A stretch of 64,000 bases of DNA from a virus, in the IMG/VR virus record IMGVR_UViG_3300011113_000649, positions 1-64,000 of that record; one strand, written 5' to 3'. Position 1 is the stretch's first letter. Every line of letters begins with the position of its first letter. Position numbers and translations under genes: made by a program. A model generated the notes under the pieces. It worked only from the letters and a program-made list of their open reading frames with translations, was not told the origin of the DNA and made no database searches. Below, one piece after another: positions 12,601 through 44,021 of the stretch.

Positions 12601-15600
12601 TCTAAACTTGAATCAGACGCTGAAAAGGAAACAGCTTTGAAAGCTGGAAAGGTTCTCAAATTTGGATTAGCTGGTTTGCGTTTCGGCACAACTGCTGGAA
12701 TAGGTAGCGATCCAATAGCTTTATCTGAAACTGTTATGCAGAAGGGCGCGGAGGTAAAAAGAAAATTTTCTGGAGATATGCCTGGTTCTTTTACTGGATA
12801 CGAAGCTATAAGACCAATTAAACAGGGTCCTCTAGTACAAATAATACCTGGGGCATTAAGTAAACAATTTAATAAAATTTGGGCTAAAAAAATAGAGGAC
12901 ACTTTATATTCTGATTTTAGTAAATCTGTTGTAAAAACAGCTCAAGAATTCGGTAATCAAATTGATGCGACAATAACCAATGATCAATCTGAAATTAGAC
13001 AAAGAATAGATAATGCCGGATTTTCTAATGTAATAGGTGCCGCTCTTGAAAGTTCTATAGGACTCCTTGGAGCCCCTTATATACAGAAAGAGGAAAAAAC
13101 CAAATCTATTGACTTCCCAACAGGCTTAGGTTCGTCTGCTAAATTATTTGGTATACCATCTAATATACCAACAGATATTACTAGAACTATTGGCGACCCT
13201 GGAAAAAGCGTGCCAGACTATATTGATCAAATACAGAGATTTTTAGAAAAAACTCCAAATGGACAAAAATATCTTAGCGAATTCTTACAAAGAAAAGCAA
13301 AAGGTGGTAGTGTCGCGATTAAAAAATTTGCTTTTGGAGGTCGTTCAGATGGTCCAGATTTTGACGAGATACGTCAACAAATAATAGATAAGTATCCAGA
13401 TATACAATTTAGAATCAGCAAACGAAAGAGTGGATTTGGATATAATTTAATGGGTGCCCTTAAATCAAAGGGAGGTTTATTTGGCAATAGTGAGTTAAGT
13501 TTTCAACAGCCCGGAAATCTCAAACAATTACAAGAGTATTCAGATAAATTAGCTGCTAAATTAATATCTTCGGAACAATTGGCGGCTGGTGGATTTGCTT
13601 CTGGCGGAAGTGTTCCCGCTATGGTTAGTAACGGAGAAGCTTTTGTTCCTCCAAAATTAGCTAAAAAAATTGGATATGCAAAATTAGATAAGATGAATCA
13701 GGCTGATCGTAATGGAATGAAAGGTTTTGCTGGTGGTGGGGTTAGCGTATTTAATGGGCCGGGTAGTGGAACTAGTGATAGTATTGGTCCGATTGGATTA
13801 CCACAAGGTAGTTATGTTATACGAGAAAAAGCCACCAAGGCTTTGGGACTAAACAAGGGTGGTAGTGTTGGTGTACAGCGTTTTGAAAACGGTGGTAGAT
13901 TAAACAAAGCAGAACGCAAAAGAATTAAAGAACAATATTTAGCAGAGCAACGAGGCGGCATAACTAGAGAAGAAGCACGAACAGTTGGTATGCCACGCCC
14001 AGATTATGGGGCTGGTGCTAGTCGTAGAAAGGACGTTACTGCTACTCCTCAGGGATTACAAAATATTAAAAATATTGAAGGTGAAGTTTTAAATAATTAT
14101 GGTAAATTATATGCCGAAGAGAAAAAAAGGATAGATCAATTATATGATAATTTAGAAAACAAAGCACGAGAGGAATTTTTTGAAGGTACCATAGACGCAG
14201 ACGAGCTGACAGACAGGATGATGACTTTATATGAAGCTAAAATATTATCCAAAAGCCAGACTAAGGCTAAATTAACAGCACAAGTTAAACCAGCACAATT
14301 AAAAGCTGTAGAAGATTATACCGCTGGCAAACAAACGAAACAAATAACTACTAGAAAAACGCAAGATAATAAAATATTCGAGCAGGGAATTGAGTCTAAA
14401 ATGGCCTCCGTGGCCGAAGAGGTAAAATCTAAATATCAAGACTTACTAAATCAAGAAGTTCAATCATTAAAAGCTTTCTATAAAGAGAGGGCTGCGAAAG
14501 TAAAAGCAGAGGGTGGTGATGTTGCTGCTGTAGTAGCAGAATATAAATCAGCCTTAAACGACGCTAAACAGTCTATGGAAAGTGGGATGAGAGCTGAGAC
14601 AAAGCAACAACAAGCAGCCGTTCCAGATAAAATTGTTGAATCTAAAAAACAAGAAGTACAAGCTTTACGAAGTGCGGCCGATCCGTTTTATGAAGCTAAA
14701 AAAGCTGCTGATGAATATGCGGTTACGGTAGGCGATGCCGCAGAAACCTCTAAACAAATGGCAGAAGAACAAAAAGCCTATATAGAATTTTTAGCTAGAC
14801 AAAAGGGTCTTAGTTCTAAAGGTTTAAAACTACAACTCGCTAAAGATTTAGGTAAAGAATCTTATGAAATTAAACAAAAATCAAGATTTGGACAAGAAGA
14901 AATTAAAGCGATGGCTGCTGGGAGTTCTAGAACCTTACAAGGAAAAGACGTTAAAGCACTATTAGAGCCTGGTGTAGACACTCAAGAATCTCGTCAAGTT
15001 CAAGATATAGTCAATAGTTTTGAAGCTAAAATTAAAGAGATCAATCCTACAATAGGAGGAGACAAAGCTAGAGACGCTGCTATTGCATTGGCCACAGGGT
15101 TAGCGGCTGGCGATCAGTCAGTTAAACAAATTATTCAATCACACGAAGGACTTCACAAAGCAATTGGCACCCAAATAAGCGATACCGATGCGGCTAACGA
15201 AGCTCTACGTAGAACTGCTGCTGCTGCCGGTATGAGTGAAGAAGCCTTGAGATCACTGGTTTCTAAAACTGATATTGATCGTCAAGAATTTGCACAATCT
15301 CCAGAAGGTAAGAGATATGGAGTTATTGCAGAAATGATGCCCGATTTTACTAAACAATTCTCTGAGAGCGGTTTGGGTAAAGGTCTTGGTAAAGTAGATG
15401 ATTTTTTTAGTGGTAAGGGAGGCAGATTAAGTAAACTTGCTGGTAAAGCTGGTGGTTTTACCGGATTGGCCACAGCAGCCACAGCAGCTATTCCATTTGC
15501 AGCAGAAAGCTTACTAACAAAAGAACAAAAGAAAGACCCAAATATAGCAGGAGGTATTTCTGCGGCAACTGGAGCCCTTTCTATGGGTGCGGCTGCATAT

Positions 15601-18600
15601 GAAATGACCGGGGGTGGAGTTACCGGCTTAATAGCTGCGGCTGGAGCAGCTTTGCTCGGAGGCATTAAGGGTTGGTTTGAGGGCAAAAATCAAGCAGTAT
15701 TTCAAAATGCTATAGATAGTTTAGCAAAAACAACAAATGGCTTAGAGCATGCCTTCCAAGAATTAGAAAAAGAAGCTACTCCTAAAAATATTAAACAATT
15801 TAATAAAGCTGCTGGCGACGCCTTTATGGCTCAGCAAGAAATAGGAAACATAGCTTTTTCTGAACAGAGAAATATGGTTGGTTCGGCTACTAGCGGAGAA
15901 TCATTAGGAGGAGCTGCCATAGGCGCGGCAATTGGCACAGCAATAGCACCAGGAATTGGAACGGCCATAGGAGCTGGTTTGGGTTATCTAGCTGGCGCTT
16001 TTAAAGACTATTATAGTAAATTTGATCCCACACAAATTGCAGAAGCAGGAGCAGCATATACTAATGCAAATGTTTCTTTTTATGAGGCGCAAGGACGTGC
16101 TGCTGAGATTAAAACAGAAAAACTTCCGATAGAACAAGTTGATTCTATGATGGAAGCACTCAATAACGGAGTTAGAACAGCTAATCCAATAATACAATCT
16201 TATGCTGCTAGTTTAAGAAGCACAGGGGAATTTACCGAAGATCAGATAGCTACAATGTCTGATGAACAGTCTGCAATTGCAGCTTTCTTACAACTTAAAA
16301 AGGCGCAGCTTGGTAGTGAAGAAGCAGCTGTTGAAGAATTAAAGAAAAATAAAAATAAAGCAATTGAAGTTGGTAGAGAATTGGTAGACGCACAAGGAAA
16401 AAGAATAGTTAAGGAAGATCAATTAAAAAACGCTATAAAAGAGGTGACAGTAGCCACAGCAAGTACGCTAGATATCTATCGTAGACTTGGAGCAAATATT
16501 CGTAGATACGAAGCTGAAATGGGAGATATAACGAATAACATTAAAGGATATATTGGTGATCTTACCGGCAGTAGTAGCGCTGTACAAGATGTAGATAGGG
16601 GTGATACAGAAAGGGTACTCGGGAATATCTCAGCATATAGTGCAGAACAGGTTAAGGCGGCCGCTGCTGGCGTATCTGGTATGTTGGGAAATACTCCAGA
16701 ATCCAAAGAATTAGCCGACACGGCATCAGCCTCTAAAATACTTCAAGATCAATTACCTGCGCTTCTTAGGTCCAACGAAGGAAACAGAGGTGCTGCTGTT
16801 GATCAACTAGAAAATCTATTAAAAGCTCAAGGTCTAGACAGTGGCGCAATTGATGCCGTGCTTAATGATATAAGAAAAACGGTTGCAGAAGGTGAAGAAA
16901 AAGGTACAGGAACTTTAATAGACGAAATAGATAGCGGTATTCTGTCCAAATTTTCTCAGACTGCCGAAGAAGGATCCAAAAAACTTCAAGAATTAACAGC
17001 TACCTATAATAATACTATTCAGGAATTTATTAATTTACAAAATCAACAAAGTCAAGCTATTTCAAAAGCTAACGAGTATTATAGACAAGCGGCTCAAATA
17101 AGACTAAACGCAGAGCTAGATCTTGCAAAAGCTCTTGGTAGAAATCTAAGTCTTGACGAACTCAACAAGCCCTTTGAAACTGAAATTAGTAGTTTAACAC
17201 AAGGTCTTTCAAATATAGGCGTTCTTGATGCTGGTCAAGCTATGGATCCAGCCGCCATTGCTGCTGGAATACAAGCTGCTGGTGCTAGAAATGTAGAGCT
17301 AGAGGCATCTAATAAACAACTTAAAGGAGAGTTTGGAGCAGCTACTGATGATAGTCAAAGACAAGCTTTAAATAATGCTCAACTAGATAATATAGAAGCA
17401 TTAGGACAAAATAAAAGAGCTATTGAGGAAGGTCAGGCAGCATTGCAGAAGTTAGCTACTGATGGGTCTCGTGCCGCTAATGCTTTGGCTAAAATACAAG
17501 AGGAACAAAAACGACTAGAAGCCTTTGGATCTTCTTTAGATAATGCATTAACAGCTAGTCCAGGAGAACTAGCAAAAATGAATTATAATACCGATGCTAT
17601 GAATCGCGTATTAGCTGGAGATACTAAAGGTCTTAAAACTAGTCAAGGTCGCAAAGCAGCTTTTGCCGGTTTACAACAAGACAAAGAACTTATAGGAGAA
17701 GCAGAATATAATAAACGACTAGCCGTTTTACGTAGGCAATCATTAATGGAAACACAAGGACAAGTAACACCAGAACAAGAAAAGATGATTCAAAGACTTG
17801 AAAAAGGTTTACCAGACGAGGAAGATCCTAATGTTAAAGCATACAGAGAAGCATCAGCAGCACATCAAGAGGCTAATATTAAGCTGGGTGATATGCAGAT
17901 GGCTGCTGCTGATAAGATTGGTGAGAAAATGGATGAATTGAGAACGTTTTTAGCTGATAAATTTCCCGGCTTGCTTACTCAGGCTGTGTTGGATGCTAAA
18001 ACGGCTTCAGCTACTGCTGGTGCTGCTGGTCAGACCACCCAGACAGCGCCAGACGTTAAAGCAGAACAAACAAGGCGTGAGGAGGCAGATAAAGAGGCCG
18101 CGGCCAGAAAAGATGAAATTCAACGAGCCGAACAAGCAGCTCAGACTAAGTCTGATAAAGCTGCCAGACTCGATAAAGAAATGACAGAAGAAGAAAAGTG
18201 GAGATCTAATCCTATAGGACGTGGTATAGCCAATAGAGCCGCAGAAGAAGCTGATGCAGCGAAAGCTAAAGTCGAAAGATTGAAAGCCGCAGATGTAGCG
18301 GCACAACAATCTGAAGATCAAAAACGCGAATCTTTTGATACTACTAGAAAACAACAGGAACAACAAGCCAAAGACGCCGCGGCTGCAGCAGATGCTAAAA
18401 AAGCAGCTGAAGATAGGGCCAGAACTCAACAAACAATTGATCAATCCAGAGGGGGGCCCAAACAGCCGGTGCTGTCAAACTGGCAGCGTGCCTGGCCGGC
18501 CAACCTGGCCTTGCCCATCCCTGCTCCACCAGCTCCTGGTACAACACAAGCATCATATTCTGGAACTAGAGCGGTTACAGCTCTAGCCCCATTAGGCCAA

Positions 18601-19380
18601 GCTAAAGCTAGTCAACAAGAAATAGCCTCACGACAACAAAGCCTAGATCGTTTATCTGGATCAAAAACTGCCAAAGAAGAGGAAATCGCGAAAAAAGAAA
18701 AGGCTCTTAAAGGAGCTCGAATAGCTGCTATTGGAGCCGGAACTTTAGAGACTAGTCCACACGTAGCTAAGGCACAAGAAGCTGTAGATATGGCTAAACA
18801 AGACTTAATCAGCATTAATGAGCAAATAGCAGCTGAGAAAAAAAGACTCGCAGCACTAGCAGCACTAGCTCAAATAGAAGCACAAAACCAACCAGGAGCA
18901 ACGCCAACACCCGCGCAGGCTCCATATACTGCAACAGCAAGGCCACAGTCTGGTGTGGTTAGCACCCCACTACCAACCCCTGTTCCAGTCTCTCAACAAT
19001 CTGCCACAGCCGTTAACACAAACGACGCAAGACAACGAACAGATAGACCACAAACCGGTGGTCCGTCTGGTGGTGTTGGCTATTCTTTAACGGTTGATGA
19101 TAAATCAATGGAATTTTTATCTAATTTAACAAAAGTATTTAATACTTTTGGTACATATGTTGATAAATTGGCTGGATTAGACCTTAAACTCGAGTTAACC
19201 GGAAATTATACAATAGATGTCAATATCACCGGTGCTGCTGGATTAGCTGCGATAGATAAAAGCATGAGAGAATTAGCTACAGGATTGGTAGAAGCAAAAA
19301 TTAGCGAACTTAGAGATGAGATTTCTACTGTTACAAGAGGTGCTGTAAAACCCAGCGCCTCTAAAGGAACTACAAAATGA
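9646..19380 (+). CDS. Phage tail tape measure protein, TP901 type
   Basis: A protein of 3244 residues; AGGAAA ribosome site. It sets tail length and is ejected with the DNA. Residues about 120-410 form the TP901-type core, with LVRLQQITGQTKTQLGSLE, IADTLAQAGLSAEETRVALK and IATGLRTIFTRIQRAG. Hydrophobic segments lie near 460-500 and again near 1930-2010 and 2090-2120 (Gly- and Ala-rich). Glycine modules of the form GG-x-VPG...GE-x-VI occur at residues 583, 1320 and 1364. The C-terminal third is Ala-, Gln- and Glu-rich coiled coil. A GC-rich Pro-rich insert covers about residues 2936-2965. The stop overlaps the next start (ATGA). By the known scale of about 0.15 nm per residue the tail would be close to 0.49 micrometre. 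Confidence 0.92.
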   Translation: MANKFNLTAELNLRGPANIKTVVAGIRRELGTVTADVKLKIDPAASRNISTITSKLTAMNNVLASAKNNTDSLNIALKNLSSSIQSVNAVNTKTISSTSKVSSTIQATAQAAQIASSKFEEFGKQSALAIKRFAAFSVVTTGVYALIGAINDGLKSFILFDKQLVRLQQITGQTKTQLGSLEQTITQLATNFGVSSESLIGIADTLAQAGLSAEETRVALKALAMTELAPSFDDITRTTEGAIAAMRQFGLAATDLEDVLGSINAVAARFAVESGDIIAAIQRTGGVFASASKGVSQGKDALNEFIAVFTSVRATTRESAETIATGLRTIFTRIQRAGTIKQLREFGVELQDLENKFVGPFEAVRRLSEALNQLDPRDVRFSTIIEELGGFRQVGKVIPLIQQFATAQEALKVAQTGQSSLSGAQVKSQQALGVQIAKVREEFLALVRDIGKSSSFQALAQIILGLASTFIKLVGAFKPILPILAVIGAIKGAGAITKFAGGFLGAFGQGGGAKSVGSNVGEKLTGAAEKEKAQVTARAADATRSNTDALHGLTSAIKSLESAVRSKSTTGLRSGGKVLGFNKGGIVPGNGGGDKVPAFLEGGEVVINRKAAQRYGADRLLKLNNYKGGSSRGVKNKTGRRSRFKPLSEKEISRLSTRELMDYVNSRELEDYIYSSGAGMSIGMEFVTVPKDKIIPEIEKDLVVGPNGDKGFWREKIATFGRETQASTKKTESQKRREAFFDKSRELLMATSQGLLDPRSALSKERKEAFKSIGPSVVGDYEKSLFATPRIKSENFSSADASSVKSKFIAWGKNPASGIFSSVIAGFEEQIRNQLDEPNKSRFDTLISSGSLDAYKAAGGKDGHIPPLKKAIYGIVGLTEKKIGGLIRQYGNGSEGGVEAMATQKILDKLFSGFVVSGGRGIRSITTTSTESGPKHSEISVRQLLSKKTNLAKLATSSGHSLKSLEDARQELTKQKTSESEQAQLSKLESDAEKETALKAGKVLKFGLAGLRFGTTAGIGSDPIALSETVMQKGAEVKRKFSGDMPGSFTGYEAIRPIKQGPLVQIIPGALSKQFNKIWAKKIEDTLYSDFSKSVVKTAQEFGNQIDATITNDQSEIRQRIDNAGFSNVIGAALESSIGLLGAPYIQKEEKTKSIDFPTGLGSSAKLFGIPSNIPTDITRTIGDPGKSVPDYIDQIQRFLEKTPNGQKYLSEFLQRKAKGGSVAIKKFAFGGRSDGPDFDEIRQQIIDKYPDIQFRISKRKSGFGYNLMGALKSKGGLFGNSELSFQQPGNLKQLQEYSDKLAAKLISSEQLAAGGFASGGSVPAMVSNGEAFVPPKLAKKIGYAKLDKMNQADRNGMKGFAGGGVSVFNGPGSGTSDSIGPIGLPQGSYVIREKATKALGLNKGGSVGVQRFENGGRLNKAERKRIKEQYLAEQRGGITREEARTVGMPRPDYGAGASRRKDVTATPQGLQNIKNIEGEVLNNYGKLYAEEKKRIDQLYDNLENKAREEFFEGTIDADELTDRMMTLYEAKILSKSQTKAKLTAQVKPAQLKAVEDYTAGKQTKQITTRKTQDNKIFEQGIESKMASVAEEVKSKYQDLLNQEVQSLKAFYKERAAKVKAEGGDVAAVVAEYKSALNDAKQSMESGMRAETKQQQAAVPDKIVESKKQEVQALRSAADPFYEAKKAADEYAVTVGDAAETSKQMAEEQKAYIEFLARQKGLSSKGLKLQLAKDLGKESYEIKQKSRFGQEEIKAMAAGSSRTLQGKDVKALLEPGVDTQESRQVQDIVNSFEAKIKEINPTIGGDKARDAAIALATGLAAGDQSVKQIIQSHEGLHKAIGTQISDTDAANEALRRTAAAAGMSEEALRSLVSKTDIDRQEFAQSPEGKRYGVIAEMMPDFTKQFSESGLGKGLGKVDDFFSGKGGRLSKLAGKAGGFTGLATAATAAIPFAAESLLTKEQKKDPNIAGGISAATGALSMGAAAYEMTGGGVTGLIAAAGAALLGGIKGWFEGKNQAVFQNAIDSLAKTTNGLEHAFQELEKEATPKNIKQFNKAAGDAFMAQQEIGNIAFSEQRNMVGSATSGESLGGAAIGAAIGTAIAPGIGTAIGAGLGYLAGAFKDYYSKFDPTQIAEAGAAYTNANVSFYEAQGRAAEIKTEKLPIEQVDSMMEALNNGVRTANPIIQSYAASLRSTGEFTEDQIATMSDEQSAIAAFLQLKKAQLGSEEAAVEELKKNKNKAIEVGRELVDAQGKRIVKEDQLKNAIKEVTVATASTLDIYRRLGANIRRYEAEMGDITNNIKGYIGDLTGSSSAVQDVDRGDTERVLGNISAYSAEQVKAAAAGVSGMLGNTPESKELADTASASKILQDQLPALLRSNEGNRGAAVDQLENLLKAQGLDSGAIDAVLNDIRKTVAEGEEKGTGTLIDEIDSGILSKFSQTAEEGSKKLQELTATYNNTIQEFINLQNQQSQAISKANEYYRQAAQIRLNAELDLAKALGRNLSLDELNKPFETEISSLTQGLSNIGVLDAGQAMDPAAIAAGIQAAGARNVELEASNKQLKGEFGAATDDSQRQALNNAQLDNIEALGQNKRAIEEGQAALQKLATDGSRAANALAKIQEEQKRLEAFGSSLDNALTASPGELAKMNYNTDAMNRVLAGDTKGLKTSQGRKAAFAGLQQDKELIGEAEYNKRLAVLRRQSLMETQGQVTPEQEKMIQRLEKGLPDEEDPNVKAYREASAAHQEANIKLGDMQMAAADKIGEKMDELRTFLADKFPGLLTQAVLDAKTASATAGAAGQTTQTAPDVKAEQTRREEADKEAAARKDEIQRAEQAAQTKSDKAARLDKEMTEEEKWRSNPIGRGIANRAAEEADAAKAKVERLKAADVAAQQSEDQKRESFDTTRKQQEQQAKDAAAAADAKKAAEDRARTQQTIDQSRGGPKQPVLSNWQRAWPANLALPIPAPPAPGTTQASYSGTRAVTALAPLGQAKASQQEIASRQQSLDRLSGSKTAKEEEIAKKEKALKGARIAAIGAGTLETSPHVAKAQEAVDMAKQDLISINEQIAAEKKRLAALAALAQIEAQNQPGATPTPAQAPYTATARPQSGVVSTPLPTPVPVSQQSATAVNTNDARQRTDRPQTGGPSGGVGYSLTVDDKSMEFLSNLTKVFNTFGTYVDKLAGLDLKLELTGNYTIDVNITGAAGLAAIDKSMRELATGLVEAKISELRDEISTVTRGAVKPSASKGTTK
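18451..18540 (+). other. GC-rich, proline-rich insert inside the tape measure gene
   Basis: About 90 in-frame nucleotides of markedly higher GC, opening with six G. They encode GGPKQPVLSNWQRAWPANLA and a following Pro- and Ala-rich stretch. They sit between Ala- and Gln-rich AT-biased segments. The composition break is visible on both sides. Likely a transferred linker; the reading frame is kept. Confidence 0.6.
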
Positions 19381-35020: not shown

Positions 35021-35392
35021 TCAGAAAGCCACCGGTTCAGCTTCTTGAGCGGTTTTAGTCCTCTTGGTCTTAACAATCTGACCAAAATTATTAACTCTAA
35101 CCTTGATGGTACTATGCTTTACGCCATCTTTTTCCCAGCTATCATTCCTAAGACTGCCCTCAACCATTACTAAATCACCCTTCTTAAAAGACGACGCAAT
35201 GGCTTCGGCACCACTATCCCATGCTTCGCATTGAATAAAAGATGTTACCTTGTCTTGTGAGCCATTAGCCTTAGTAAACTCACGAGAAGTGGCGACCGTA
35301 AAGTTGACAACAGACGTTTGCTTGTCGCCAATATTGACGGTTCTTAGTTCAGGATCTCGTGCAAGATTACCACGTATCATAACAATATTCAT
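35021..35392 (-). CDS. ssb: Single-stranded DNA-binding protein
   Basis: The start is set at 35392, where AAGGAG precedes the ATG; the longer open frame would start upstream at a TTG and lacks support. The product is 123 residues, slightly shorter than bacterial SSB (about 160-180). One OB-fold of bacterial type: MIRGNLARDPELRTV, VVNFTVATSREF, TSFIQCEAWDSGAEAIASSF and GDLVMVEGSLRNDSWEKDG. The tail lacks the usual acidic DDIPF-type tip and ends in EAEPVAF. Works in phage replication with the neighbouring polymerase, primase and helicase. It has its own sigma70-like promoter. Confidence 0.92.
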   Translation of the reverse strand: MNIVMIRGNLARDPELRTVNIGDKQTSVVNFTVATSREFTKANGSQDKVTSFIQCEAWDSGAEAIASSFKKGDLVMVEGSLRNDSWEKDGVKHSTIKVRVNNFGQIVKTKRTKTAQEAEPVAF

Positions 35393-35433
35393 ATATAAGC
35401 TCCTTAAAAAATAAAAAGTAACCAACTGACAAT

Positions 35434-35462
35434 ATTATAACGTTCCCGTGGTGTGGCGTCAA
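35434..35462 (-). promoter_or_regulatory. Sigma70-type promoter for SSB
   Basis: On the minus strand, TTGACG, a 17-nt spacer and a perfect TATAAT. Predicted RNA start near 35427, leaving a 35-nt leader with AAGGAG. The -35 box contains the TGA stop codon of the polymerase gene upstream. Host RNA polymerase would use it, probably early in infection. Confidence 0.75.
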
Positions 35463-37078
35463 GTTCGTGCGACGTATGCTTTTTCTACCACAAAACTATC
35501 TTTGGTCCTCGACCTAGTTCCACACACAATAATAACATTTCCTGAGAACAATATAGATTTATATTTTTTATAAACCTCTGGAAAGAATATGACAGAATCC
35601 ACGGACCCTGTACCATCAGACATTGTGACAAAGCTCATTTCCTCGCCAGGAGTTTTTCCATTTTTTGTTTTAATTGCATTTATAAAGTCTATTTCACCAC
35701 CCATTATTAAGTTATTTGTATTAATACCATTCTTAAAATCTCTACAAGTAGTATTGGTCATGCTAATATCATACATATCAACTTTAGAACAAGTGATTGA
35801 ACATCCTAAATTAGAGTCCTCTACATCCGCAATCCACTCTGGATTATCATCCAAAGAATATGGAGGATTTTGTAACATAGTTATTGCATCGCTAATAATT
35901 TTTTTTCTGTTTTTATTACTTTTACCATTTATAAATAAATCATCTAAAGCTGTCTTAAGTGATGTATAGTTTTGAATATTCTCTATAATATATGCTGATT
36001 CTTTTTTTGTCAACATTGATATTATTTCATATTCAAATAACATACAAGTTCTGGTTTTATGTACAAAAGATACCGCACCACTTTCTATTAATGCTTTAGC
36101 TGCAGTTGAATTAATATTAATTAAAATCTTAAATAATATTTCTAACCACGATAATTCTAAAAGAGATTGATTTAATTCTAAAACAATTTTTTGCAGTTTA
36201 GTAAAAACAGAAGAGCCTACTCCCTTAATGTCTGTTAATCCGAAATAAATATCGTTATTTTTTAAAATAAAAAATTCATTCATTATTCTCAGATCTGGAG
36301 TTTTGATATTAACATCCATTTCGTTGGCGTTTTGCACCAAGGCTTTAATCTCTTCATGAGGATCAATTTTATCTTTTGCAAATCTTAGATATGAAGCAAA
36401 AAATACTTTGGGGAAGTGAGCCTTAGCATATGCCGATAAGTAAGCATTAATAGCATAGCTTACACTATGAGACTTATTAAATGAATATCTTTGGCTCTTC
36501 TCAATCCAGCCGAAAATTTGTTCGGCCTCGGACTGATTAACAATTTGTGTTTTTGTTACGCCTTCTAAAAATTTAGTCCTGATTTTTGCCATTTCTTCTG
36601 GTTTTTTCTTACCAATAGCCTTACGCAACATATCGGCTTCTTGTAAATTGAACCCAGCTATGTTCTTAGCAATTTCCATTGCTTGTTCTTGATATATCAT
36701 TTCACCATATGTGGTTTTTAGAATAGGTTCTAAGGCTGGATGAAAATAGTCTAAAGATTCTTCCCCATTCTTTTTATCTATATAATGATTTGTAACGCTT
36801 TTTCCATTACGAATCGCCTCTAGCGTACCCGGCCTTAGAATAGCAATCAGAGCGGACAACTGCTCTATATTTTCTGGTTTAAGTTTTTTAGCTATTGATC
36901 TACCTAGTCTAGATTCTAGCTGAAATATTCCTTTAGTATTACCATCACCAATAAGATTCCAGGTTCTAGAACAATCTAGATTTATTTTTTCTATAGATGG
37001 ATCAAAGCTAATACTCTTACCGTGATCGTCTACCAAATCAAAACAACAACCACAACTATAACTAAATTTTTTACTCAT
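35459..37078 (-). CDS. dnaE: DNA polymerase III alpha subunit, C-terminal half (split gene)
   Basis: The start is set at the ATG at 37078, which overlaps the exonuclease stop (ATGAGTAA), giving 539 residues. A CGC-C region near residue 8 and FDPSIEKINLDCSRTWNLIG open the chain, followed by KGIFQLESRLG (about 45), the YGEMIYQEQAM helix near 95 and the fingers motif YSFNKSHSVSYAINAYLSAY near 200. A helix-hairpin-helix (GLTDIKGVG) and a C-terminal OB fold come later. The three catalytic aspartates are in the other half at 37937-39805. Together the halves total about 1161 residues, the size of one complete DnaE. Confidence 0.85.
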   Translation of the reverse strand: MSKKFSYSCGCCFDLVDDHGKSISFDPSIEKINLDCSRTWNLIGDGNTKGIFQLESRLGRSIAKKLKPENIEQLSALIAILRPGTLEAIRNGKSVTNHYIDKKNGEESLDYFHPALEPILKTTYGEMIYQEQAMEIAKNIAGFNLQEADMLRKAIGKKKPEEMAKIRTKFLEGVTKTQIVNQSEAEQIFGWIEKSQRYSFNKSHSVSYAINAYLSAYAKAHFPKVFFASYLRFAKDKIDPHEEIKALVQNANEMDVNIKTPDLRIMNEFFILKNNDIYFGLTDIKGVGSSVFTKLQKIVLELNQSLLELSWLEILFKILININSTAAKALIESGAVSFVHKTRTCMLFEYEIISMLTKKESAYIIENIQNYTSLKTALDDLFINGKSNKNRKKIISDAITMLQNPPYSLDDNPEWIADVEDSNLGCSITCSKVDMYDISMTNTTCRDFKNGINTNNLIMGGEIDFINAIKTKNGKTPGEEMSFVTMSDGTGSVDSVIFFPEVYKKYKSILFSGNVIIVCGTRSRTKDSFVVEKAYVART

Positions 37079-37760
37079 TAAACGAATTCTTAAACTTAAC
37101 CTTTGAAGCAATATTTCTATGTAGTTTCATAAACCTGATCATAATTTCTGCGGTATCTTTGACGTCTTTAATAGCGTCATGAGCACCCTTTTTATCTATG
37201 CCAAAATATTCTCGTAAAGAATCCAGAGTATAACTTTTCAAGTCGGGATTGTGCTCAAACCAATAAAAAATTATATTCATTACGTCTATAACATCTCTAG
37301 GATAAAAAATATCAGATGTATTTTCTTTATTAGTATTACCATATTTTTGACTTAATCTATCTATAATTTTAAGATCAAATCTATTAATATTATATCCAGC
37401 AGCTATTGGTGCGCTAAATTGACTCTTCTTGGAAGATCTTGAATGATATTTATCTAGATAATTAATAAACATATTCCAAGACTGTTGCTGCTTGGGGTAG
37501 TTTTTCCATTCATTCAAAACATCGTCTTTAGAACAGCCTTTGACCTTTGAATGAAAATCTAAAATATCTGTAGTATATACATAATCATTATTTTGTTCCA
37601 AAACTTCTGGCTTAAAATTAATATTAAACTCTGAATTCGGTATAATTTCTAGTTTAATTGGATCAATAATTACGGCCGCAATTTGTACAGGACTACAGGC
37701 TTTAGGATCCGAGCCATCGGTTTCAAAATCAAAAACACAAATTTTGTTATAATTAATCAT
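37071..37760 (-). CDS. dnaQ: DnaQ-like 3'-5' proofreading exonuclease
   Basis: A protein of 229 residues of the DEDDh exonuclease family. Exo I is VFDFETDGSDP near residue 9. Exo II is NINRFDLKIIDRL near 125. Exo III is GAHDAIKDVKDTAEI near 193, with the active-site His and Asp. It removes misinserted bases behind the polymerase. It is placed exactly between the two halves of the polymerase and is coupled to both flanks by overlaps of 8 nt. Insertions within the fold (about residues 60-110) are longer than in bacterial DnaQ. Confidence 0.85.
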   Translation of the reverse strand: MINYNKICVFDFETDGSDPKACSPVQIAAVIIDPIKLEIIPNSEFNINFKPEVLEQNNDYVYTTDILDFHSKVKGCSKDDVLNEWKNYPKQQQSWNMFINYLDKYHSRSSKKSQFSAPIAAGYNINRFDLKIIDRLSQKYGNTNKENTSDIFYPRDVIDVMNIIFYWFEHNPDLKSYTLDSLREYFGIDKKGAHDAIKDVKDTAEIMIRFMKLHRNIASKVKFKNSFNE

Positions 37761-37935
37761 TAACTTGTACTACCGTGAGTGGCTTTACTTGAATAGCTTC
37801 TGTAGACTGCGAAGCGTTCACCGCGTTTAAAACTTTGCAGCAACTAATTCTTTTATCTTGAATCTTAATATATTCTGTTCCATTTAAAGTAAATTTATCG
37901 TTTACCTTTAATTCTTTAAATTCAATTTCTTTCAT
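37753..37935 (-). CDS. Small hypothetical protein between polymerase halves
   Basis: A protein of 60 residues with an AAGGAG site that lies inside the last codons of the N-terminal polymerase half. FKELKVNDKFTLNGTEYIKI and a later NAVNASQST resemble a family of about 60-residue phage proteins with an SH3-like strand order. It has two cysteines in a row. The function is not known. The end overlaps the exonuclease start by 8 nt. Confidence 0.65.
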   Translation of the reverse strand: MKEIEFKELKVNDKFTLNGTEYIKIQDKRISCCKVLNAVNASQSTEAIQVKPLTVVQVND

Positions 37936-37936
37936 A

Positions 37937-39805
37937 CTAGACTCCTTGTTGTAATAAAAATCTAATGGTCATAATTTTATCTAACATCGCAACACCTAAA
38001 ATATCAAACTTAATAATTCCTATGCTTTCTAGATCTTGCATTTCCATGCCAGCAATCAGTTGTTTATTTTTGCTATCGTAAACCATAGGACAAATTTCGT
38101 TTAATGGTTCAGAACTTATAGCGATTCCAGCCGCGTGTTTTGATTGATTTGATTTAGTTCCCTCTAGCCGTATCGCTTGTTCAAATCTTTTTGCTAGTGG
38201 TCCTTGTAGTTCTCCACTTTCATCAATATAGCACCACTCTTTGAGTTTGTCAACATTGTTTTCTAGTGACCAGCGAATGATAGAAGATTCGCCAGTTTCT
38301 TCTTTCATTTCTTGAAGTTCATCGGCTATTTTAGCTTCGTCAGGTATGTTTTTAGTAATTCTATTCATTTCCTCAAAGCTAACATTACCATATACTCTTA
38401 AAACGTCTTTTAGCGCCCCGCGTCCCTTAATGGTATTAAAAGTAATCATTTGAGAAACTTTATCATACCCATACTTATTTTTAATATATTCAATGATAAC
38501 TTCTCTCTTATCTATGGGAACGTCAACATCAATATCTGGCATACTAATATGATCTTCTGAATTACGTCCAGCATTATAAAATCTATCGAACAATAAATTA
38601 TATCTTATTGGATCAATACTAGTAATCCCAATTAAGTAAGAAACCAGACAACCAGCAGCAGAGCCTCGACCGGGTCCAGGTAACCAATTATTTTTTCTTA
38701 CAAAGTTCACTATGTCTTGTACAATTAGAAAATAACTCGACAGTCCAGCACCCTGTAAAACATCTAGTTCATATTTAATTCTATCTAAATATTCTTGTTG
38801 ATTATTTTTATCTATTACTGGATTAATTTTATCTCTCCAGCCTATTCTGCATAGTTCCCTGAGATATTCATCTGGATTCATATTTTTAGGACATTGAAAC
38901 GGTGGCAATTTAGGCTTATTTAGAATATTATAGTGTTCCACCAAATCCGCCACATAATTTGTATTTTCAATTTCTTGTGATGTATGAATTTCTTTCATTT
39001 CCTCTTGAGAAGGAATATGATAATTTTCTGAAGTAAAAAAGCAAGACAACGGCGTTTCTTCGTCATTACTAATTTTTCTACTAATTTCTGGAAATGTTGT
39101 TTTTAGGTTATTGCAAAGCAAAATCCTTTGATCTATTGCGTCCTCTTTTTTACAATAGTGAGCATCTGGAGTGCAAATAACTTTTGTATTAGTTTCTTGA
39201 GCTATTTTTCTGACAGCATTTGTTAAAAGTTCTTGAACTGGTAAATTTTGTTTATCTATCAGTTGAGCCTCTAAAAATACTTTGTCTTGAAAAATTTGCT
39301 TCAAATATTCAATATGTTTTTTACCAGATTCTAACCAGTTCTCTTTTAACTGATATGATTCTAAGATTTGGTCGGATAGAGTAGAGCCTAGATGTCCAGT
39401 AATAGCAATCAAATTTCCGCTATTTATTTTGGCTATAGCTTCTAGATTAAGTCTAGGTTTATGATAATAATGCTCTGGTTTGTTAGATTCAGAAACTATC
39501 TTAATAAGATCAAGCCAACCAGCATGATTTTGTGCAAGAATGATAAAATGAGCTAACGACCTATTATCTTTATCTTGAATGGCTGGGTCTTTTTCGCAAA
39601 TATATAATTCACAACCCAGGATCGGTTTAATACCAGCCTCTTTCATAGCGCTATAGAATTTAACAGATCCGGCAATATTGCCATGATCTGTCAATGCGCA
39701 TGATGATGCCCCTATCTCTTTGCATCTGGCGGCAATTTGTTCTGGTTGACTTAATCCGTCCAATAACGAAAAATGTGAATGTACATGCAGAGGAATATAG
39801 TTCAT
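37937..39805 (-). CDS. dnaE: DNA polymerase III alpha subunit, N-terminal half (split gene)
   Basis: A protein of 622 residues. The ATG overlaps the upstream nuclease stop (ATGA). The PHP domain is at the N-terminus: LHVHSHFSLLDGLS, LTDHGNIAG and VICTPDAHYCKKEDA. The palm carries GPGRGSAAGCLVSYLIGI near 368 and MPDIDVDVPIDKRE near 420, with two of the catalytic Asp. GIIKFDILGVAMLDKI near 600 has the third. The gene stops soon after this, where the fingers-side segment should continue. The continuation is the gene at 35459-37078. No intein sequence lies at the break. Confidence 0.88.
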   Translation of the reverse strand: MNYIPLHVHSHFSLLDGLSQPEQIAARCKEIGASSCALTDHGNIAGSVKFYSAMKEAGIKPILGCELYICEKDPAIQDKDNRSLAHFIILAQNHAGWLDLIKIVSESNKPEHYYHKPRLNLEAIAKINSGNLIAITGHLGSTLSDQILESYQLKENWLESGKKHIEYLKQIFQDKVFLEAQLIDKQNLPVQELLTNAVRKIAQETNTKVICTPDAHYCKKEDAIDQRILLCNNLKTTFPEISRKISNDEETPLSCFFTSENYHIPSQEEMKEIHTSQEIENTNYVADLVEHYNILNKPKLPPFQCPKNMNPDEYLRELCRIGWRDKINPVIDKNNQQEYLDRIKYELDVLQGAGLSSYFLIVQDIVNFVRKNNWLPGPGRGSAAGCLVSYLIGITSIDPIRYNLLFDRFYNAGRNSEDHISMPDIDVDVPIDKREVIIEYIKNKYGYDKVSQMITFNTIKGRGALKDVLRVYGNVSFEEMNRITKNIPDEAKIADELQEMKEETGESSIIRWSLENNVDKLKEWCYIDESGELQGPLAKRFEQAIRLEGTKSNQSKHAAGIAISSEPLNEICPMVYDSKNKQLIAGMEMQDLESIGIIKFDILGVAMLDKIMTIRFLLQQGV

Positions 39806-40833
39806 TCTGTGCTTCCGGGTGCTTTGTATTTACCAACACTATAGCCGTTGACAGTATAGTTGTCAACAACGTTTTTTATGCCGTTTAATTCGATTTCATG
39901 TTTTAGCTGTTCACACATAGTCATACAGCTTCCTTTTGCACAAACCTGATTATCTCTATATTCTATTATAGGTAATATACTATTATGGTTCTCAAACGTA
40001 TTTTTCCCAAAATAGCACAACTTAGTACATTTCCACGTTTTACTAAGCCGAGGATTTTGGCAGCGTTTAATTTCTTCAAATTTTTTACGTATTAAATTTT
40101 CTGTCGATGTTAAATCAGATTTGTCAAAACACATACTAAATGCTCCACCATCATTAATAAAGTTAATAGACATTATAATATGATCATATTCAGGATATAA
40201 TTTACTGAGAGCATAATGATATATTTTTAATTGTGGGTCTTTATATAATTTTTCTAATGTTTTTTGTTGCCCCGTCGCCCAATCTAGTCGCTTACCGGTT
40301 TTCCAATCTATTACTTCTAGTGTAGAATCATTGGCTTTTGTTATTAAGTCAATAGTTCCCTTAATAGCCAGCTTGCCTTCAATCACACCGTCTTTAGTTT
40401 CATACTTATATTCAGCCCAAGGCTTATCTATTACTATATCAAAATGTTGCTCTGGCTGAACCACGAATCTCGACCTAGGATCAAAGATGCCGTTGTGGTC
40501 TGTGAGAGCTTTATGAACCCATAGATGGGTATCTTTTAAGTCTTTTGTTGACCACTCATGGTGTTTAAACTGAGACGTGTAGTAGTCGTATACGCGTTCT
40601 GTAATATGGTCTAAATTATACTCATCAACAAATATATCACCCAAGATATCATCTACATAAGTATTTAGCTTATTTTGCTGACTTAGTTTGATACCGGCTA
40701 AAATTTCTAGAACTTTATGGACTATAGTACCCTTATCAGCCTTTTTATTTGATGGACTTCTATAGCCTAAACTATACTCTAGAAAATATTGCATTTCACA
40801 AAAGGAGTGGGTTCCATAAGAACTACTACGCAA
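39802..40833 (-). CDS. PD-(D/E)XK nuclease, Cas4/RecB type
   Basis: A protein of 343 residues, if translation starts at TTG (no in-frame ATG before residue 14, and the first cysteine would be lost). SSYGTHSFCEMQYFLEYSLG opens it. The nuclease core has GTIVHKVLEIL (H), IKGTIDLI (D) and LEVIDWKTGKRLDWA (D-x-K), followed by QLKIYHYAL (Q...Y helix). Cysteines at the start and in WKCTKLCYFG and CAKGSCMTMC may form a Fe-S cluster as in Cas4 and AddB. Such phage nucleases process ends for recombination or help replication. The stop overlaps the polymerase start. Confidence 0.7.
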   Translation of the reverse strand: MRSSSYGTHSFCEMQYFLEYSLGYRSPSNKKADKGTIVHKVLEILAGIKLSQQNKLNTYVDDILGDIFVDEYNLDHITERVYDYYTSQFKHHEWSTKDLKDTHLWVHKALTDHNGIFDPRSRFVVQPEQHFDIVIDKPWAEYKYETKDGVIEGKLAIKGTIDLITKANDSTLEVIDWKTGKRLDWATGQQKTLEKLYKDPQLKIYHYALSKLYPEYDHIIMSINFINDGGAFSMCFDKSDLTSTENLIRKKFEEIKRCQNPRLSKTWKCTKLCYFGKNTFENHNSILPIIEYRDNQVCAKGSCMTMCEQLKHEIELNGIKNVVDNYTVNGYSVGKYKAPGSTE

Positions 40834-40844
40834 ATATGTGATTA

Positions 40845-41438
40845 TTATGACAGCACCTTTTTCTTTTTTAGAAAATTTAATACCACCTCGTTTTGTTGAG
40901 GAATACTTAGATTCTCGTTGTAAATTACTAAATCAAAATTACTATTTGAATAATGATTAGCGTCTAAAGCAATTTCGCTAGCATGATCAGAATTGTGTGG
41001 ATTTCTAGTCAGTTTTATCACCAAACCTCCAGCATCCCTGATTGCGTCAACTTCATTAGGAAATCTACAATCTGCTATAATAGCTATTTGTGGTTTGTCT
41101 TTTTTAATTTTATTGATTGTGGCACTAGACCAAACATCATTTTTCATTTTTCTAAAAAGATCTGTTCCGACAAATTGCATGACTTCTCTTGCGGTTAGTT
41201 TTGTATTTCTCCACACTATGTCTGTTAATTCATTTTTTTTATTGTCATCACCATAACATTGATCATATGTTAAACCTAAAATATTTATACAAATATCTTT
41301 TTTGAGAGGATCAGCAAAATTATAAATTTTAGCTCCATTATATGGTTCTATAGCGCCATTAAAATATTTCGCCACAAACTCAGAGCATGTGGTTTTTCCA
41401 GACTGTTTTCTACCAGCAAAAGCTATTATATTAGTCAT
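40845..41438 (-). CDS. Deoxynucleoside monophosphate kinase
   Basis: A protein of 197 residues. Walker A GRKQSGKTTCSEFVAKYF (about residues 9-26), then FADPLKKDICINI, then a RNTKLTAREVMQFVGTDLFR lid-like segment, and IIADCRFPNEVDAI with an Asp-Arg pair. This is the layout of phage dNMP kinases like T4 gp1. It converts dNMPs to dNDPs and works with the class II reductase and dCMP deaminase in this window to supply precursors. ATGA overlap with the primase gene upstream. Confidence 0.8.
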   Translation of the reverse strand: MTNIIAFAGRKQSGKTTCSEFVAKYFNGAIEPYNGAKIYNFADPLKKDICINILGLTYDQCYGDDNKKNELTDIVWRNTKLTAREVMQFVGTDLFRKMKNDVWSSATINKIKKDKPQIAIIADCRFPNEVDAIRDAGGLVIKLTRNPHNSDHASEIALDANHYSNSNFDLVIYNENLSIPQQNEVVLNFLKKKKVLS

Positions 41439-42598
41439 ATTATCCTCTGAATATACTCTTTAATTTGATCGTTAATTTCTTGTGTACTCATTTCGCCAAC
41501 GTCGTTTTTAGAAATGGTTGGTATAAAAACTCTATATGTATTCTGACACTTATTTTTAATTTGTTCGGCTGCTTTTTTACCTGCTTCATCATTATCTGTT
41601 AAAACTATTAAAGTCATCGCACCAGAAGAGTCTAATAAAATTTTTTGTCTGTCACTAAGCGATGAACCAAAAATAGCTACACTATTGTGAATACCATTTT
41701 CTTCTAGTCTCCACACATTTCCCGGACTCTCAACAATGATTGCTATTCCGGTGTCATATATATGATCTTTAGCAAACCAGAAATTGTAAAGATAGTTTTG
41801 ACTTTTAAAGTCGGCACTATGCTTCCATTTTGGATATCCCCATTTTTTATCATCAGATGGACACAAATTAGATGTGTCGTGATAAGATGAGCACTTTGTA
41901 CATTTTTCAAAAATGCTGCGACCGGTACATCCTACCATATATTCATAATTACTATCATAAATAGGAACAACCACTCTTTGATACATTGGCTTAGACGGGT
42001 TGGCACACAGTCCTACATCATATCTCTGTAGTGTACTATCTTTATAGTTTCTATCTATATAATATTGCGCTGGAATATTTATAGCTTTTATTATTTGATT
42101 TCTAGTAATTCTACTGTCAGACTTTTCTGCTTTAGCGTTTATATAGTTGATAATATTAGTAAAATTATTTTTCTCTTTTTCTGTTTTAGATATTTTGATA
42201 CTACTTAGATCTTTATTTAAAAAAGCTTGAACATACTCTAGGGCTTCATTAAAGGAACAACTAGCATCTCCTGGTTCAGACCAATGATATTTTTGATGAG
42301 ATATGATACCTCTTACAAAACCAATAATTGAAGACTTGAATTCTTGCTCACAATTATGTGTGCGACACTTCCAATTGCCCCTATACCTGTCTCCGTCTGG
42401 ATATATATTGAGCGCCGATGGATTATCTCCACCGTGTATGGGGCAACTCATTGAAATCATCTTGGAATTATTTTTAAACTCTAATCCAAATGTATCTAAT
42501 AGAGTTTCTATATTATCACACAAATCATCGCATAAAACTTTGAGTTTTGATTGATCAATTGAAGGGTATTTCTTCTTCATCATAGTCTGCTTGTTCAT
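41435..42598 (-). CDS. dnaG: DNA primase, DnaG type
   Basis: A protein of 387 residues. A CHC2 zinc finger comes first (CPIHGGDNPSALNIYPDG and CRTHNCEQ, about residues 52-85), then a linker. The TOPRIM domain near 285 has IAIIVESPGNVWRLEENG with the Glu, and near 330 TLIVLTDNDEAGKKAAEQI with DND-type acidic residues. The region between them carries a second cysteine group (CTKCSSYHDTSNLC). It synthesises RNA primers with the DnaB helicase encoded just upstream. The first ATG overlaps the helicase end by 44 nt; a later ATG pair (42583, 42580) could be the true start. Confidence 0.85.
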   Translation of the reverse strand: MNKQTMMKKKYPSIDQSKLKVLCDDLCDNIETLLDTFGLEFKNNSKMISMSCPIHGGDNPSALNIYPDGDRYRGNWKCRTHNCEQEFKSSIIGFVRGIISHQKYHWSEPGDASCSFNEALEYVQAFLNKDLSSIKISKTEKEKNNFTNIINYINAKAEKSDSRITRNQIIKAINIPAQYYIDRNYKDSTLQRYDVGLCANPSKPMYQRVVVPIYDSNYEYMVGCTGRSIFEKCTKCSSYHDTSNLCPSDDKKWGYPKWKHSADFKSQNYLYNFWFAKDHIYDTGIAIIVESPGNVWRLEENGIHNSVAIFGSSLSDRQKILLDSSGAMTLIVLTDNDEAGKKAAEQIKNKCQNTYRVFIPTISKNDVGEMSTQEINDQIKEYIQRII

Positions 42599-44021
42599 CT
42601 ACAACAAATCCTTCGTCTTCGTTTTTAGTGTTGTTTAATAATTCTAATCTTGTTTTGCCTTCTGTAATTTTGGCACACCAACCCTTCATATGACAATTAA
42701 TATAATCATTATCATCAAGTCCACCGCCGTGACGGCTCACTAATGGTAGTAGTTTTCTGTTTCCGTTTGTTGGTCCATCTTCAGCTATTTCTTCATCGCT
42801 TTTGCGTTTAAAAATACTAAAATTACTACACAGCCAAATAATTCTATCAGAACCACTAGCAGTATCTGTACTTTCTTTCGTAATACCATCCCGGTTCAAC
42901 TGTATAAATGCAACAATCGGTATTTGATATCTTACAGCAAAATTATGTAAACTGGTCATCATAAACCCTAAGACCTGATACTCTTTTAGATCTTGATTCA
43001 TTCCTTGACTATCCATAAGTTTCAAATAATCATAGAAAATCACACATTGTTTAGCTGTTCCATCGTCATTTAATCCAACTTCTTTTAAGATCCATCTACG
43101 CATAATTGCTAATTGTTCTTCAAATGGCTTGCCGGCGATACTCTTATAGAAGAGTCTAGTAGATTTAAGTTCTTCAGCTGCTTTTAATATTTTAGTTTTA
43201 GTATCAGCAGATTCTGCAAATCTTCCTGTTTCTATAGCATTAATTTCTACTTCTGTCATCATACCAAGAACTCTATTAATATGGTCTACTGTATTCATTT
43301 CTGTATCCATATTTAAAACAGGAATATTATGTTTATGTGCTATATGAAAACCTATATTATCAGACAACAAGGTTTTGCCTGTTTTTGGTCTAGCCGCAAT
43401 AACGTTTACAGTTCCTTTTCTTAATCCTCCGCCGATTGCCTGATCATAAACCGGAAAACCGGTAGGTATTCCTATTTGATCGACTTTGTTTTCTTCAAGA
43501 CTTTTAATGTACTGATCAATATCTTTACCGATACTTATCGGATTATTGTCTGTATCATTTAGCAAAGAAGAAAAATTAAAAACGGCGTCCTCCGCAACAC
43601 CTAATATAGATGCTATCGGCTCATTACCATTAACTTCTAATAGTTTATCTCCAGCCTGTTCAAGCTGTTTTCTTAACAGCCTAGCTATTTCTAACTTGCG
43701 TATTTTAGCAGCAAATTTGCGAACATTTTCTAGACTAACAGGAAAATCTATAATAGCTTTAAGGTGTTGTGCTTCTTCTTTTTTGGTAAAAATATTAGAA
43801 ACACCAATGTCTTGGGCGGCAGAGTATATAGAAGCCACATCAATTGATGGCTTTTGTTCGTTTTCGCACAGGTATTTTAAGCATTGATATATAATGCTAT
43901 TGCTGTCAATAGTAAACGATGACGCTTGAACTATATCTGCAACATCTAAATACGCATCTTCTCCATACCTGCAAATACCCGCCAATACCGCTCTTTCAGA
44001 TGCTGGATCACACAATATCAT
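42555..44021 (-). CDS. dnaB: Replicative DNA helicase, DnaB type
   Basis: A protein of 488 residues. The N-terminal helical domain (DPASERAVLAGICRYGEDAY) is followed by the RecA-like ATPase. Walker A is AARPKTGKTLLSDNIG near residue 209. Walker B is VIFYDYLKLMDSQG near 330, and TDTASGSDRIIWLCSNFS near 395 is the C-terminal motif. The last 20 residues are acidic (DEEEIP). Hexameric helicase for the phage fork, working with primase, polymerase and SSB encoded nearby. Confidence 0.9.
   Translation of the reverse strand: MILCDPASERAVLAGICRYGEDAYLDVADIVQASSFTIDSNSIIYQCLKYLCENEQKPSIDVASIYSAAQDIGVSNIFTKKEEAQHLKAIIDFPVSLENVRKFAAKIRKLEIARLLRKQLEQAGDKLLEVNGNEPIASILGVAEDAVFNFSSLLNDTDNNPISIGKDIDQYIKSLEENKVDQIGIPTGFPVYDQAIGGGLRKGTVNVIAARPKTGKTLLSDNIGFHIAHKHNIPVLNMDTEMNTVDHINRVLGMMTEVEINAIETGRFAESADTKTKILKAAEELKSTRLFYKSIAGKPFEEQLAIMRRWILKEVGLNDDGTAKQCVIFYDYLKLMDSQGMNQDLKEYQVLGFMMTSLHNFAVRYQIPIVAFIQLNRDGITKESTDTASGSDRIIWLCSNFSIFKRKSDEEIAEDGPTNGNRKLLPLVSRHGGGLDDNDYINCHMKGWCAKITEGKTRLELLNNTKNEDEGFVVDEQADYDEEEIPFN

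Follow-up and report, generated by a model that had tools for sequence, protein, structure and literature searches.

A DnaE-type DNA polymerase encoded by two genes that flank a DnaQ-like exonuclease in a clade of phages

Split polymerases and the locus in the window

The core of E. coli DNA polymerase III (alpha-epsilon-theta) contains a family C polymerase and a separate DEDDh exonuclease; epsilon binds the PHP domain of alpha. In cyanobacteria, DnaE is split; the cut lies in the fingers beside FNKSH (motif YGFNKSH), and the two halves are joined by a split intein. Split DnaE genes are also found in phages. In Rossellomorea phage phiT1 (gp20/gp18, GenBank accession # PV767480), as in the locus described here, the cut is in the linker between palm and fingers (E. 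coli 574/584). This locus is contained in the first 64,000 nucleotides (the window) of IMG/VR virus record IMGVR_UViG_3300011113_000649. The replicative family C polymerase of this phage very probably consists of two polypeptides that assemble non-covalently, with the exonuclease encoded between them most likely acting as its proofreading subunit. The locus resembles the E. coli core in having a family C polymerase and a separate DEDDh exonuclease; however, E. coli alpha is one chain with an extra C-terminal domain, and dnaQ does not lie inside a split dnaE.

Two-gene DnaE polymerases of other phages are cut at other sites. In Microbacterium phage Dauntless, Mycobacterium phage MontyDev, and Bacillus phage BpsS-140, the cut follows the PHP domain (E. 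coli ~270/~290-320); in Cellulophaga phage phi19:2, Bacillus phage Jayan, and Bacteroides phage BS-TP1, it falls just before the DxD motif (~398), and in BS-TP1 a Dda-like helicase is located between the halves. In Klebsiella phage GArcari-2022b, the break in DnaE is at E. coli ~740, and another open reading frame (ORF) separates the parts. Jumbo phages of group 2.2 encode a minimal Pol III module, lacking the remaining Pol III domains, as two proteins, which were proposed to reconstitute; their genes are distant from one another, and a family B polymerase is also present (Iyer et al. 2021, PMC7824862). In contrast, the halves in the window include PHP and OB domains, their genes are neighbors, and a family B polymerase (PF00136) was not found. 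Outside of family C, the 43A/43B proteins of T4-like Aeromonas phages and the PolB3 of Methanobacteriales are replicative polymerases made as two chains (PMC2988022, PMC4104785). These differ from the window in that they belong to family B and have a homing endonuclease or an untranslated spacer, and no exonuclease, between the halves.

The main features of the locus are as follows (N and C denote the two halves of DnaE):

37937-39805, minus strand: N half of DnaE, 622 amino acids, with PHP, palm, and thumb (Pfam, phrog, alignment, structure model)
38534-38536, 38528-38530, and 38003-38005, minus strand: codons of the catalytic aspartates D424, D426, and D601 of N
37753-37935, minus strand: gene S, 60 amino acids, with a weak match to phrog_1648 and a conserved SCC
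37753-37760, minus strand: 8-nucleotide overlap ATGATTAA of the S stop and the exonuclease start
37071-37760, minus strand: DnaQ-like exonuclease, 229 amino acids, with DEDDh residues D11, E13, D129, H194, and D199 intact
37071-37078, minus strand: 8-nucleotide overlap ATGAGTAA of the exonuclease stop and the C start
36971-37078, minus strand: N-terminal segment of C including ~22 added amino acids, with C9-G10-C11...C36 (the CGC...C segment)
35459-37078, minus strand: C half of DnaE, 539 amino acids, with fingers, helix-hairpin-helix, and OB fold, but without the C-terminal tau-binding domain

The original prediction, which was made from the letters of the window, had placed a DnaE split around a proofreading-type exonuclease at these positions, with PHP, palm, and three catalytic aspartates on N, the rest of the palm-to-fingers segment and the OB fold on C, and a 60-residue gene together with the DnaQ-like exonuclease between them. 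The ORFs and the profile searches bear out this layout. N matches the Pfam domains PHP (PF02811) and DNA_pol3_alpha (PF07733, 246 bits). C matches DNA_pol3_finger (PF17657, 161 bits) and, above the cut-off, the OB domain; HHH_6 scored just below its cut-off (25.1 versus 25.6). The exonuclease matches RNase_T (PF00929) and phrog_192, annotated as DNA polymerase exonuclease subunit. When compared to phrog_405, a profile of unsplit phage DnaE with 1190 positions, N covers positions 42-611 and C covers 613-1055. Because the two halves tile the profile seamlessly, no core residue has been lost. C ends at the OB fold, and since its match extends only to position 1055 of 1190, the tau-binding domain found at the C-terminus of the bacterial protein is absent. 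The cut is located within the palm-fingers linker, at E. coli ~574/584 and ~20 residues past D555, which leaves all three catalytic aspartates on N. As had also been predicted, this break differs from the cyanobacterial one: the FNKSH motif is uninterrupted (residues 200-204 of C), and neither N nor C has an intein match.

The junctions between the genes are as tidy as had been claimed. The TAG stop codon of N is followed by a single base and the ATG of S, and AAGGAG is present within the end of N; the two overlaps listed above connect the remaining genes. The C-terminus of N reads LLQQGV, and the N-terminus of C reads MSKKFSY. We place the start of C at the ATG at 37078 (MSKKF), whereas the mechanically called ORF begins at an upstream TTG at 37111.

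Conservation of the split and of the exonuclease

IMG/VR was scanned with either half as query, which retrieved relatives at 58-87% identity; 436 stretches from this clade were confirmed by tblastn (not deduplicated). After deduplication and extension to the more distant part of the clade, 131 distinct environmental loci were found to contain both halves, and conservation of residues was assessed in 81 loci plus the window (82 sequences). All 131 distinct loci are split at the same place, none is unsplit, and in each of them the exonuclease is located between the halves. The N-exonuclease-C order is therefore shared with other phages, and a frameshift or assembly error, named beforehand as a finding that would overturn the prediction, is ruled out as the cause of the split. 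The catalytic residues D424, D426, and D601 of N are invariant (82 of 82 sequences), as are D11, E13, D129, H194, and D199 of the exonuclease. Median identity to the window is 73% for the exonuclease, 72% for N, and 66% for C. S is found between N and the exonuclease in most relatives; it resembles small proteins of other phages (phrog_1648, phrog_2183).

The PHP domain of N in the window reads HHDHEHHDH and has all nine metal-binding residues, which fits the pattern HHDHEH[C/H]DH termed active in PMC12926913; the complex may therefore contain two nucleases. As annotated, the metal site is complete in 64 of the 82 sequences, and the remaining 18 have their first two histidines upstream of a candidate ribosome bypass site (see below).

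The linker between KFD in the palm and FQLES in the fingers is mostly ~52 residues long in unsplit relatives (48-65). In the split pair, 24-26 residues of this linker are on N and 50-55 are on C. Since this sum exceeds the length of the unsplit linker, ~24 residues were gained and none were lost. Most of the gain is accounted for by the new segment of ~22 amino acids at the N-terminus of C. C9, G10, and C11 of this new segment and C36 of the retained linker are invariant in all 82 sequences; judging from this pattern, the segment may bind a metal.

An alternative polymerase elsewhere in the genome was the other finding that had been named as contradicting the prediction, and none came to light among families A, B, and C. 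The 105.5-kb record from which the window was taken has a single DNA_pol3_alpha and a single fingers domain; neither another DnaE nor a polymerase of family A or B was found in it. Twelve further records from the clade (150-231 kb) each contain one fingers domain, which in G010 is in two pieces around an intein; a polymerase of family A or B was not found in these twelve. The split DnaE is thus the only polymerase found in the 13 records (105-231 kb). No PF02768 clamp was found in them either.

In phage phiT1, N and C are adjacent in one operon, and no intein was noted. It differs from the window in having an unrelated 49-amino-acid gene between the halves, no exonuclease, and no CGC...C segment; identity is ~35%. 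L176, an IMG/VR relative of phiT1, is split in the same way. When phiT1 N was used as query against IMG/VR, no relative was found, and an alignment led by phiT1 N retrieved 80 IMG/VR loci, mostly unsplit. Of ~75 other IMG/VR DnaE loci, which share ~35% identity with phiT1, nearly all have an unsplit gene. In phylogenies, the window clade is strongly supported and has a long stem, and phiT1 and L176 are placed apart from it; a single clade uniting them with the window clade was not rejected in the approximately unbiased (AU) test (p = 0.417). A common origin of the two splits is thus neither shown nor rejected. Since split phage DnaEs, at several break sites and in phiT1 at the same one, were already present in GenBank, the split, while real, is less novel than the original prediction implied. 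The new elements are the CGC...C segment and the fixed N-S-exonuclease-C cassette, together with how large and how conserved this cassette is.

The nearest matches of N and C labeled as phage are contigs with a long unsplit dnaE beside genes typical of bacterial chromosomes. MT837297 and MT836213 (matching N at ~35%) and SA 1306 Kay and Pseudomonas phage Y1 (matching C) were therefore not accepted as unsplit phage relatives; they probably are bacterial DNA. Four GenBank records labeled as phage (L160, L161, L162, L163) resemble a bacterial chromosome and have a normal unsplit dnaE. Other breaks in phage DnaE, which may be real splits or sequence errors, were seen near the OB fold (L197:5998-9239), in the fingers (L253:2166-5448), and in the PHP domain (L248:5941-9111).

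Probable assembly of the two chains

In the reading that we favor, N would supply all three catalytic aspartates along with PHP, palm, and thumb, and C would supply fingers, helix-hairpin-helix, and OB fold. Because the cut is within the palm-fingers linker, each chain could hold complete domains, and the active site could be rebuilt jointly. The exonuclease would most likely belong to this complex as its proofreading subunit, produced in step with the polymerase through the overlapping start and stop codons. The CGC...C segment might help the chains meet. A precedent is provided by 43A/43B of Aeromonas phage 25, which co-purify and are active as polymerase (PMC2988022). Non-covalent assembly had already been part of the original prediction, and the case for it has become much stronger; that the chains physically meet is something we infer. 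A more elaborate arrangement, which we consider doubtful, would have the fingers as a separate subunit, clipped to palm, thumb, and PHP by metal-bound cysteines and bridged by the exonuclease, such that polymerase activity would depend on the assembly of the proofreader.

Structures were modeled for the two chains separately (mean predicted local distance difference test score, pLDDT, of 75.4 for N and 80.6 for C), and each model adopts a Pol III alpha fold. The best matches in the PDB were Pol III alpha chains for both, and the alpha-epsilon chimera structures 4gx8 and 4gx9 are among the matches. Segments modeled with low confidence include N 375-429 (from GPGRGSAAG to PDIDVD), C 83-111, and C 197-202; in the assembled enzyme these would face the partner chain that is missing from the models. 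Several observations weigh against the favored reading. The confidence of the models is moderate, and the C model aligns to PDB chains with template modeling (TM) scores of only 0.3-0.5. The CGC...C segment has no match to a Pfam domain. In addition, the 13 records are all linear and may be fragments, and a further polymerase may have escaped the search.

The two chains might instead be joined covalently. Trans-splicing by a split intein, known from cyanobacterial DnaE and from "fractured genes", would have a source within the clade, where split inteins with free endonucleases occur at other sites (L104, L105, L295), as do full inteins (L023, L329). However, no Intein or Hint domain was matched by Pfam in N or C of the window, as the original prediction had held for the break, whereas the inteins of the sister phages L104, L295, and L023, used as positive controls, were detected. 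N ends and C starts alike across the clade, without splicing blocks, and S and a DEDDh exonuclease are located between the halves instead of the homing endonuclease of a fractured gene. We regard joining by an intein as extremely improbable. Joining could also occur at the RNA level, if S and the exonuclease were encoded within an intron that is spliced out, or through recoding; introns are common in phage polymerase genes, and some relatives have a candidate bypass site near the start of N. However, Rfam detected no intron in the window, the junctions are standard starts and stops with gene overlaps, and the tail of N and the start of C are together ~24 amino acids longer than the unsplit linker and include the conserved new segment. 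Furthermore, 1-3.6 kb of other genes separate the exonuclease from C in L041, L043, and L126, which makes recoding or a small intron unlikely, and we give this explanation very little credence. Given that no intein or intron was found at the break, and given the extra spacing in these relatives, non-covalent assembly is the best explanation.

Could the exonuclease be a mere neighbor in the operon and not a polymerase subunit? The same operon includes genes for a primase, a helicase, a PD-(D/E)XK exonuclease, and SSB; the exonuclease of the window is not close kin of characterized DnaQ proteins; and the PHP domain, with its metal site complete in most sequences, could supply proofreading. On the other hand, the exonuclease never leaves its place between the halves in the 131 loci, it is conserved about as well as N and better than C, and its DEDDh residues do not vary. 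We therefore consider it unlikely that the exonuclease is unconnected to the polymerase. That no PF02768 clamp was found leaves room for the use of host factors, and the split polymerase could be decayed and non-functional, with the phage using the host replicase. We think this highly improbable: the catalytic residues and both reading frames are strongly conserved over more than 100 divergent loci, and the split genes are part of a replication operon and encode the only polymerase found in the 13 records.

If the non-covalent assembly of N and C is confirmed, a family C replicase can function when its fingers are a protein of their own, and a large clade of phages has kept this two-piece state as it diverged. 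A natural two-piece DnaE would offer a system to study communication between palm and fingers and the recruitment of the proofreader.

Neighboring genes, mobile elements, and a candidate bypass site

Upstream of N are genes for a primase, a helicase, a deoxynucleoside monophosphate (dNMP) kinase, and a PD-(D/E)XK exonuclease; the SSB gene follows C:

39802-40833, minus strand: PD-(D/E)XK exonuclease gene, directly upstream of N, with which it overlaps by 4 nucleotides
41435-44021, minus strand: genes for a Toprim primase (41435-42598) and a DnaB-like helicase (42555-44021), located upstream of N
35021-35425, minus strand: SSB gene (Pfam), directly downstream of C

Sister phages carry insertions within or between the genes of this cassette (coordinates are those of the respective locus):

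L104:4056-7132 and L105:4077-7137: split intein in N, between GPGRG and S, with an endonuclease-like gene between its parts
L295:10732-13691: split intein in C, between FNKS and SH, with a LAGLIDADG gene
L023:10708-13107 and L329:10729-13095: full intein in C, between RPG and C
L148:5353-6282: LAGLIDADG gene that interrupts N near PDIDVD, with no recognizable intein
L015:2130-2813: HNH-like gene between N and S, without a Pfam match; L016 has like spacing, and the gene is confined to these two loci
L041:10731-13361, L043:10734-14380, and L126:7008-8034: inserted genes between exonuclease and C (2.6-3.6 kb in L041 and L043, ~1 kb in L126)

Since inteins are present in the polymerase genes of this clade, the break between palm and fingers might have arisen by loss of a split intein; the same was proposed for archaeal PolB3 (PMC4104785). 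The genes inserted in L041 include ThyX (Pfam), and L043 encodes a near-identical protein. A related protein of 140-146 amino acids is encoded directly 3' of the exonuclease in L041, L043, and L126.

The N genes of some relatives, but not that of the window, are interrupted near their start. In 33 of 112 distinct N genes, an in-frame stop (TAA or TAG) stands directly after Y-x-P-L-H-V-H-S; an insert of 6-11 nucleotides comes next, and coding then resumes with (H/M)(F/Y)SLLDG (examples are L045, L067, L134, L147, L150, L151, L153, and L335). Among the 82 N genes, which were chosen regardless of this motif, 18 depart from the normal start, and all 18 have the stop plus insert. A pattern search identified 76 contigs with 45 distinct sequences, whose inserts of 7-12 nucleotides fall in all three frames. 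The upstream Tyr, Pro, Leu, and His, which were not fixed by the search pattern, are retained in 45 of 45 sequences with synonymous changes. This stop plus insert probably represents programmed ribosome bypassing (hopping), for which it is a strong candidate. Read-through or a shift to +1 or -1 as a single explanation is ruled out by the occurrence of inserts in all three frames; the +1 frame of L150 also contains its own TGA. In the loci with 11-nucleotide inserts that were read, no start codon precedes SLLDG. All sequences are compatible with a hop from UCN to the triplet that immediately precedes the resume codon; 29 of the 45 have UCN at this triplet, and the others have ACU, GCU, or GCC.

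The site can form a hairpin in which GUCCAUUC pairs with GGAUGGAC, enclosing an inner stem whose start lies within the stop codon or beside it; L153/L352 is an exception and has no such hairpin. A MAFFT alignment of the hairpin region misplaces the inner arm, and covariation was assessed by shuffling the arms. The inner arms covary, with 18 distinct combinations and a mean stem of 5.6 as compared to 4.2 after shuffling; none of 20,000 shuffles reached as high a value. The Val codon is GTC, which is part of the hairpin arm, in 18 of 18 genes of the hop group, and GTC is absent from the listed codons of the others. The trait changes at least eight times on the tree. A similar layout is known from gene 60 of phage T4, where a take-off codon, a stop, and a take-off stem-loop are used to bypass 50 nucleotides (PMC11194080); according to a 2016 review, natural hopping over an in-frame stop was not known at that time (PMC5009743). 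In the sister phages, the same gene is a site of split inteins and, as a strong candidate, of ribosome bypassing over a short range, which is a rare type of decoding.

Two members of the clade, L335 (RFVO01000077.1) and L336 (NZWA01000066.1), were binned in metagenome-assembled genomes of Bacteroidota (Chitinophagia and Flavobacteriales), which weakly hints at Bacteroidota as hosts. The plus strand of the window carries an ORF of 3244 amino acids at 9646-19380.

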